From an uncultured Acidobacteriota bacterium (GTDB lineage: Bacteria; Acidobacteriota; Terriglobia; Terriglobales; Acidobacteriaceae): a DNA stretch of 64,000 bases. Position numbers and translations under genes: made by a program. A model generated the notes under the pieces. It saw only the letters and a list, made by a program, of their open reading frames with translations. It was not told where the DNA came from and ran no database searches. Below are positions 2,141-19,165 of the stretch, piece after piece; the first letter of the stretch is position 1, and each line of letters starts with the position of its first letter. Where the stretch lies: contig CAILAC010000017.1 in NCBI GenBank assembly GCA_903832055.1, forward strand, positions 124,001 to 188,000. The letters run 5' to 3'.

Positions 2141-2152
2141 CGGAAGCCTTCA

Positions 2153-2233
2153 GCGCCAAAGGCGCACACCATACCAGCCCAGGGCATCGCCCTGGGTCAC
2201 GTCGCCCCATTCCAAACCAAGGGCTGAAAGCCC
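2153..2233. repeat. Composite three-hairpin intergenic repeat, copy 1
   Basis: GCGCCAAAGGCGC - 12 nt - CCCAGGGCATCGCCCTGGG - 24 nt - GGGCTGAAAGCCC; same order and nearly the same spacing as 18216-18295. Confidence 0.8.
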
Positions 2234-2386
2234 GATCTATCCCTCTCCGGCGCAAACCAATCAAACACCCATCAGCCACGTCACCGGCATACCCGCCAGC
2301 TTTCATCGCGGCCCATCCGTGCCATCGTGAATATCTCAGTATGAACTGGGAAATGAATGTAAGATGGCTCTTTTACGAGGTGGGGC

Positions 2387-18161: not shown

Positions 18162-18215
18162 CTCCAGCCTTGAGAAATCAACTCAACAGGTGCCGCGACC
18201 GCAGCAAGCGAATCA

Positions 18216-18295
18216 GGGCCAAAGGCCCACTCCATACTAGCCTGGGGCAACGCCCCAGGTATGTAGGCCAAGGAAGGGTAGAGGGCTGAAAGCCC
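18216..18295. repeat. Composite three-hairpin intergenic repeat, copy 2
   Basis: GGGCCAAAGGCCC - 12 nt - CCTGGGGCAACGCCCCAGG - 23 nt - GGGCTGAAAGCCC. Confidence 0.8.
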
Positions 18296-18390
18296 GCCCT
18301 ATCACCCGCTATTCCGGCAATGCTTGGTGATCCACTTTCCGCCCCTGAGATGTGGGACCAAATTTGTGCAAAGCACGAACCCGGAGGGAG

Positions 18391-18445
18391 CAGTGGCCTT
18401 CAGGCCACTGAATCCGACGCCCAAACAAACCGGGCTTCAGCCCCG
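18391..18445. repeat. CAGTGGCCTTCAGGCCACTG and CGGGCTTCAGCCCCG palindromes
   Basis: Short palindromes adjacent to composite repeat copy 2. Confidence 0.7.
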
Positions 18446-18451
18446 GGCCTT

Positions 18452-19165
18452 TCACGCCGTCTTAGGCGCAAACTTCCTCTCGTAATACCGCGTCCAAACC
18501 GCAATCGCCGGCACCCCCAAAATCGTAGGCCAAAGCCAGACCCACCAGGCCGCCCCAAACCAGTGCCCCAGGTTCACCGCCGAAAACGCCGTCATCGCCG
18601 CAATATAGCTCGCAATCATCCCCTGCATGTGGTCAAACCACCAGAACATCTTGTGCTTGGGCTTCTTCACAAAGCTCGCCACCGACCGCCACCCCAGCCG
18701 CACCCCCACAAACCCAAACACCACCGAAACAATACTCACTGGATGCCCAGCCACGGTGATCACCCCCACCCGCATCAGCTCTGGCCGCAACACCCCCATC
18801 ACCATCAGCAGCAGGCTTGATGCCACCGTAATCCCCGCCGCCAGCCAATCCACAAACCTGGCCCGCCCACCCTTGTACATATCTTTCAGATACAGCACCC
18901 GGTACCCCGAAAACGAAGCATAAAAACTGAACACCGCCACCATCGCCAGAAACCAGATCGGCAGCAGAAACGACAGCGACAGCGCCGTAACCGCAACCCC
19001 CGCCATAGCCCAGAAATAAATCTTCCCCCAAAGCCGGTGCGTCTTACCGCCCTTCACTGTGGCCAGCGCCACCGGCGCGCAAACAAACCCCACCACCCCG
19101 CAAGCAATGTGCAGCGTCAACAATACCTGCAAATAAACCGCCCAATGCGGATGCAATCCCATCAA
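18452..19165 (-). CDS. DUF2306-like multi-pass membrane protein
   Basis: LQVLLTLHIACGVVGFVCAPVALATVKGGKTHRLWGKIYFWAMAGVAVTAL. Confidence 0.7.
   Translation of the reverse strand: MMGLHPHWAVYLQVLLTLHIACGVVGFVCAPVALATVKGGKTHRLWGKIYFWAMAGVAVTALSLSFLLPIWFLAMVAVFSFYASFSGYRVLYLKDMYKGGRARFVDWLAAGITVASSLLLMVMGVLRPELMRVGVITVAGHPVSIVSVVFGFVGVRLGWRSVASFVKKPKHKMFWWFDHMQGMIASYIAAMTAFSAVNLGHWFGAAWWVWLWPTILGVPAIAVWTRYYERKFAPKTA

Follow-up and report, generated by a model that had tools for sequence, protein, structure and literature searches.

Introduction

The described partnerships between Y1 transposases and DNA hairpins provide a framework for reading the element presented here. A guide sequence at the hairpin foot is established for IS608 and ISDra2, as is the GTAG of REP sequences, and both are summarised by Quentin et al. 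2018 (PMC6006769). The same survey, which searched for GTRG-tagged hairpins, defines a TnpA_Y1 subclass 1.2 by the motifs DH[IV]H, WQ and Y---Q--HH and a length of about 148 aa (its Table 1), describes it as having neither REP sequences nor IS200-type ends and as 'not an IS', reports a mean of 1.7 copies at 36% identity, and places no TIRYT within it. In the open-licence literature on RAYT and REP after 2018 we found no paper linking subclass 1.2 with repeats. A further described family that bears on this locus is the Acido-Lenti-1 motif (Rfam RF01687), which Weinberg et al. 2010 listed as probably RNA and not cis-regulatory (PMC2864571); a 2026 paper regards its function as little known and speculates on regulation of protease genes (PMC13298647).

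Here we analyse a three-hairpin intergenic element that occurs twice in a 64,000-nt stretch of DNA from an uncultured Acidobacteriaceae bacterium (contig CAILAC010000017.1), referred to throughout as the window. Our reading, to which we assign a probability of roughly 0.8, is that we are dealing with a non-autonomous, REP-like repeat of single-stranded DNA, which belongs to a TnpA_Y1 subclass 1.2 (HUH-tyrosine) transposase, and not with an RNA.

Results

Architecture of the element in the window and its genome

The element consists of a small hairpin (hp1), about 12 nt, a big hairpin (hp2) with [C/T]AG directly ahead of it, about 23 nt, and a second small hairpin (hp3), an order abbreviated below as S-B-S. 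Copy 1 (2151..2241, plus strand, including a conserved CAG at its start and a GATCTATC tail) comprises hp1, GCGCC-AAA-GGCGC (2153..2165), a CAG foot (2175..2177) immediately 5' of hp2, CCCAGGGC-ATC-GCCCTGGG (2178..2196), and hp3, GGGCT-GAA-AGCCC (2221..2233), which has seven perfect matches in the genome against none for a reversed control. Copy 2 (18214..18303, plus strand) comprises hp1, GGGCC-AAA-GGCCC (18216..18228), a TAG foot (18238..18240), hp2, CCTGGGGC-AAC-GCCCCAGG (18241..18259), and hp3, GGGCT-GAA-AGCCC (18283..18295). Re-reading the letters bore out the sequence-only reading, which had placed the copies at 2153-2233 and 18216-18295 in the same three-hairpin order, with spacers of 12 and 12 nt between hp1 and hp2 and of 24 and 23 nt between hp2 and hp3, and with three compensatory pair changes from copy 1 to copy 2 (C-G to G-C in hp1; C-G to T-A and A-T to G-C in hp2). 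The conserved region is slightly wider than those coordinates, taking in the CAG ahead of hp1 and a GATCTATC-like tail past hp3.

Folded as single-stranded DNA, copy 1 forms exactly these three hairpins (z = -4.2; 0 of 200 shuffles equal it), and the fold of copy 2 has a z of -3.2. A structural descriptor of a 5-bp small hairpin, a big hairpin of at least 7 bp and a second 5-bp small hairpin, with fixed spacing ranges and any sequence, finds two sites within the window when applied strictly, copies 1 and 2; 965 kb of Markov-shuffled sequence yields no site. Its relaxed form permits one failed pair in a small stem. Copy 1 lies between divergent genes for a uroporphyrinogen decarboxylase (URO-D; minus strand) and an MFS/POT transporter (plus strand), and copy 2 lies 55 nt downstream of a dihydrouridine synthase gene. 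The two copies share no neighbour and no T-run follows the element, which makes it unlikely to serve as a terminator or leader.

BLAST of the window's own genome (4.57 Mb) locates the element at 18 places, and a covariance model, the means of collection that the sequence-only reading had proposed, recovers 19-20 copies. The three-part order expected of these further copies is aligned over at 15 of the 18 BLAST places. The family also includes truncated and decayed copies, and copies whose big hairpin is interrupted. Across an alignment of 15 copies, 95.9% of stem pairs are standard, against at most 51% with partners slid, and six pairs are altered on both sides; the covariation proposed from two copies is upheld in this larger set, with a score of 0.265 against 0.112 for shuffles, 0 of 500 of which reach the observed value. 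The spacer between hp2 and hp3 keeps its length (23-25 nt) and not its sequence, and the conserved single-stranded parts are CATACCAG ahead of hp2 and the tail past hp3. The element carries neither a GTAG nor a CGTC tag.

Other repeats occur nearby. Tandem REP-like units of 37-44 nt (TGTCATTCCCGNNGGGAATCTGCTGTTGC...) immediately adjoin copy 1 at 1930-2139; such units are abundant in the genus and also adjoin several other copies of the element (L002, L008, L010, L014, L060). At about 615-670 the window holds a repeat of two hairpins (GTACGGGCTGAAGCCCGTAC with GGGGCTGAAGCCC), like those on the flanks of the class 2 Y1 gene G000:C10:103065 (L039). Another dispersed repeat, the third, is found at about 18357-18455 (AGTGGCCTTCAGGCCACTG ... 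CCGGGCTTCAGCCCCGG) and has many copies in the genome and in congeners.

A subclass 1.2 transposase between inverted copies

The genome contains seven Y1_Tnp (PF01797) genes, two of which, C10:193210-193653 (minus strand) and C13:141945-142403 (plus strand), each lie between two inverted copies of the element, with hp3 pointing to the transposase gene on both sides at both loci. The two proteins are 74% identical, are 148-152 aa long and carry DHVH, WQ and YIDAQEEHH or YIDSQEDHH (YID[AS]QE[ED]HH), which agrees with subclass 1.2 in motifs and length. The HUH motif and the tyrosine are present, TnpA scores above the NCBIfam IS200 cut-off, and an AlphaFold model (pLDDT 90) has its best matches in the TnpA-DNA complexes of IS608 and ISDra2 (E ~1e-7), with a weaker match to TnpA_REP (E 1e-4). 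The suggestion that a RAYT (TnpA_REP) transposase might accompany the repeat was half right: a Y1 gene does lie between inverted copies, and it belongs to subclass 1.2, not to the expected class 2. A class 2 RAYT was rejected as partner, no strict S-B-S being present at the five other Y1 loci of the genome, and the class 2 Y1 loci examined closely (L035, L037, L039) have two-hairpin repeats of their own, built as pairs of a big hairpin, 20 nt and a small hairpin. The downstream copy at the C10 transposase (L057; G000:C10:193070-193196) has about 40 nt inserted in its big hairpin, and lengthened big-hairpin loops also occur in copies of genomes G001 and G051.

The association extends well beyond this genome. 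The strict descriptor was applied to subclass 1.2 genes of relatives and to 80 loci from a species-genome collection that covers Verrucomicrobiota, Kiritimatiellota, Lentisphaerae, Planctomycetota, Acidobacteriota, Armatimonadota, Bacteroidota, deltaproteobacteria, Nitrotoga and others. In this subclass, described as having no REP sequences, 65 of the 117 genes had S-B-S no farther than 300 bp away (82 of 117 when relaxed). Near class 2 genes the counts were 1 of 23 and 3 of 23, and shuffled sequence gave 0. An independent second set of subclass 1.2 genes had the strict unit at 12 of 20, and for some 30-45% of subclass 1.2 genes no S-B-S was detectable nearby. The arrangement around the gene is symmetrical: by the strict descriptor, the closest copy to the left is in plus orientation 36 times and in minus orientation 8 times, to the right minus prevails by 44 to 4, and an inward-facing copy lies within 120 bp of 65 of 115 non-redundant subclass 1.2 genes, on both sides in 35.

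The stems beside these genes differ considerably in sequence across phyla, with 22, 28 and 22 different sequences of hp1, hp2 and hp3 at 65 loci. Of 34 stem letters, 3.3 differ between the two copies that flank one gene, whereas copies from different loci differ at 13.2. Stem sequence can thus vary freely, yet it does so in step with the transposase. The correlation of TnpA distance with stem distance (Mantel r 0.38; 0 of 5000 permutations), partly a product of the shared ancestry of homologous loci, shows co-inheritance and is compatible with specificity without proving it. Among 61 relatives, element and transposase occur together in 12, one without the other in 5 and 7, and neither in 37 (p 9e-5). 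Two genomes, G010 and G011, have 29 and 12 copies of the element, and the subclass 1.2 transposase was not found in either; the former is fragmented and the latter 99% complete.

Foot, loops and strand preference

Immediately 5' of the big hairpin, whose stem starts with CC, the three positions of [CT]AG are kept in 59, 60 (A) and 62 (G) of 64 transposase-flanking copies. This trinucleotide is placed like the guide of IS608 and ISDra2 and the GTAG of REP sequences, and by that analogy it may act as a guide. The small-hairpin loops are GNA in 76 of 116 cases and the complement TNC in 3 of 116, a disparity which indicates that one strand is favoured. A GNA loop closed by C-G is, on the opposite strand, the C(UNCG)G RNA tetraloop, so such cases are silent on DNA versus RNA. 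Small hairpins closed by T-A, for which UNCG is impossible on the other strand, have GNA in 30 of 32 cases; the second set, a small one, offers three such hairpins, of which 2 have it. GNA triloops are unusually stable in DNA. The T-A-closed hairpins point to the strand described here, and they fit a stable DNA GNA triloop.

Correspondence with Acido-Lenti-1

Both copies in the window are minus-strand matches to RF01687 in a permissive Rfam search, at 2152..2196 (32.7 bits) and 18215..18259 (32.1 bits), below the gathering score of 37. The family has ten places in this genome, eight of them clear, and the clear copies score 27-33 bits, again below gathering. Its consensus of a big hairpin, CUA, 12 nt and a small hairpin corresponds to hp2 and hp1 read backwards, two thirds of the element, and RF01687 likely represents the S-B-S element in part, on the opposite strand. 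Scores above gathering occur beside several subclass 1.2 genes, at some of them on both sides. Of 119 genomes examined in the phylum, 24 have a score above gathering. RF01687 itself is present in 30 of the 119 and the transposase in 28; both are found in 23, one only in 7 and 5, and neither in 84 (odds ratio 55; p 6e-14, a nominal value, as the genomes are related). The full three-hairpin unit is found at 13 of 30 RF01687 loci by the strict and at 16 by the relaxed descriptor, a few loci being off the tested position. No other Rfam family was found near class 2 Y1 genes.

Indirect signs of mobility

Genome G058 contains near-identical multicopy elements with sharp ends, the approximate termini being the foot of hp1 on the left and about 8 nt past hp3 on the right. 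Inverted doublets of the element occur without the transposase gene, and a tandem S-B array ahead of a subclass 1.2 gene (L111 1249-1483, G058:C5) has a period of 74 nt, closes in a small hairpin, and uses the hp3 of one unit as the hp1 of the next. Copy number among congeners ranges from 0 to 29. In the nearest relative (G002) only hp1 is left of the orthologue of copy 1, the rest having decayed, and the site orthologous to copy 2 holds an S-B-S with different stems. The decay of copy 1 indicates that no strong selection holds copies in place, as expected for a mobile repeat, and the two sites in this relative together speak against a conserved in-place RNA function. A search for a clean empty site with exact junctions found none. 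Copies nested in larger repeats were seen in G193 (L400-L408), G051 (L132-L139) and G151 (L418, L419). The outer arms of these repeats are GTGTCTGTGTCATAGC / AGTCTGTGTGACAACT or GTATCTTCTCAATAAATCGG, and S-B-S looks like the cargo of another element; the ends of S-B-S cannot be fixed there, these copies lying inside the larger repeats.

Discussion

The architecture, covariation and dispersal of the element, its inverted pairing around a gene, its specificity for subclass 1.2 and the joint divergence of stems and protein provide a basis for proposing how it may function. From these we infer binding by TnpA, a position of cleavage, movement and a role for single-stranded DNA, in the following sequence. 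The strand shown would become single-stranded, for example as lagging-strand template, and fold into three hairpins at fixed spacing: a small one with a GNA-type triloop, a big one whose 5' foot, [CT]AG, stays unpaired, and another small one. TnpA would recognise the S-B-S hairpins, cut beside them via a 5'-phosphotyrosine and rejoin the ends. Such cutting and rejoining could spread the element and, between an inverted pair, the gene of TnpA itself.

The sequence-only reading had offered a REP/BIME-like or non-autonomous repeat and a structured RNA side by side. The first is strongly supported by the Y1 gene between inverted copies. The second, a structured small RNA made from the opposite strand and acting as RNA, is known as Acido-Lenti-1, and the minus-strand matches of both window copies, the listing by Weinberg et al. 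2010 as probably RNA (PMC2864571) and the equivalence of C(GNA)G to the stable C(UNCG)G loop of RNA all speak for it. It nevertheless appears improbable to us, since it fits less well with the symmetrical flanking of the gene, where two inverted copies would be transcribed in opposite senses, and with the strand asymmetry of the loops, where GNA persists at T-A closing pairs that exclude UNCG. The third hairpin, moreover, is an equal part of the unit yet lies outside the Rfam model, and the orthologue of copy 1 is decayed in the nearest relative.

That a classical IS200/IS605 insertion sequence ends in these hairpins, with the solitary copies as its relics, would agree with a protein that is a Y1 TnpA scoring above the IS200 cut-off. 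We consider it very unlikely, because real IS200/IS605 ends are unlike left and right hairpins and not an inverted pair of one three-hairpin unit, the two subclass 1.2 genes of this genome are merely 74% identical, and the subclass averages 1.7 copies at 36% identity (PMC6006769). Ordinary transcription terminators or cis-regulatory hairpins, alike by accident, would account for the intergenic position and for copy 2 shortly past the dihydrouridine synthase gene, but no T-run follows hp3, copy 1 sits between divergent genes, and the fixed three-part order and tie to one transposase subclass, seen in the counts near subclass 1.2 and class 2 genes, largely refute them; little credence is left for this explanation. 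Chance palindromes, conceivable where the genome is GC-rich and stems are short, are refuted by the 19-20 genome copies, the covariation beyond all shuffles and the empty search of shuffled DNA; with the fold scores, these confirm the earlier claim that the palindromes exceed chance.

Our preferred reading of a REP-like DNA repeat carries a wider proposition, which we regard as probable: that subclass 1.2 TnpA and S-B-S form a separate REP-like system of single-strand DNA that spans phyla, has a guide foot of its own and a recognition unit of two plus one hairpins, and that Acido-Lenti-1 is a DNA element, which would make its annotation as ncRNA in Bacteroidota, Acidobacteriota and the PVC phyla an error. 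A subclass of transposases that has been described as repeat-less and 'not an IS' would thereby gain a cognate repeat, and a concrete explanation is at hand for a candidate RNA family that was published in 2010 and has had no assigned function since. The equivalence of GNA triloop and UNCG tetraloop also illustrates how a DNA hairpin family can resemble structured RNA in covariation pipelines.

The closest known systems share some features with the element and lack others. RF01687 shares the B-12-S part, the spacing and CUA (the complement of TAG) and matches the window copies and the flanks of subclass 1.2 genes, but its model, an RNA read from the opposite strand, leaves out the third hairpin and has no transposase link. 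IS200/IS605 elements such as IS608 and ISDra2 have a Y1 TnpA of the same fold and hairpin recognition with a 5'-foot guide (established for IS608), whereas the system here has inverted symmetric flanks, both ends being the same S-B-S unit in place of distinct left and right ends, a diverged low-copy transposase and many solo repeats. TIRYT and TIRtrons (Di Nocera 2013) likewise have a Y1 gene with terminal inverted repeats, Acidobacteria included, but their proteins are class 2 (mostly subclass 2.1) and their repeats GGGGWSAS. The class 2 REP/RAYT REPtrons also have much in common with it: dispersed multicopy palindromes, a Y1 gene between inverted copies, inverted doublets, an unpaired conserved foot 5' of the hairpin and a stem set particular to each transposase are features of both. 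They differ in the transposase (subclass 1.2 with Y---Q--HH here, Y---NP in RAYT, and strict S-B-S at only 1 of 23 class 2 genes), in architecture (three hairpins in fixed order over about 90 nt against one palindrome of 20-40 nt) and in the foot, which here is [CT]AG with its first base free in place of the GTRG (GT[AG]G) or CGTC at the end of a single palindrome. Because it lacks these two defining features, the tag and the Y---NP transposase, the element stands outside the GTAG-REP/class 2 RAYT family; S-B-S and subclass 1.2 TnpA would work like a REP/RAYT pair, and the element is a REP-like repeat of new architecture.
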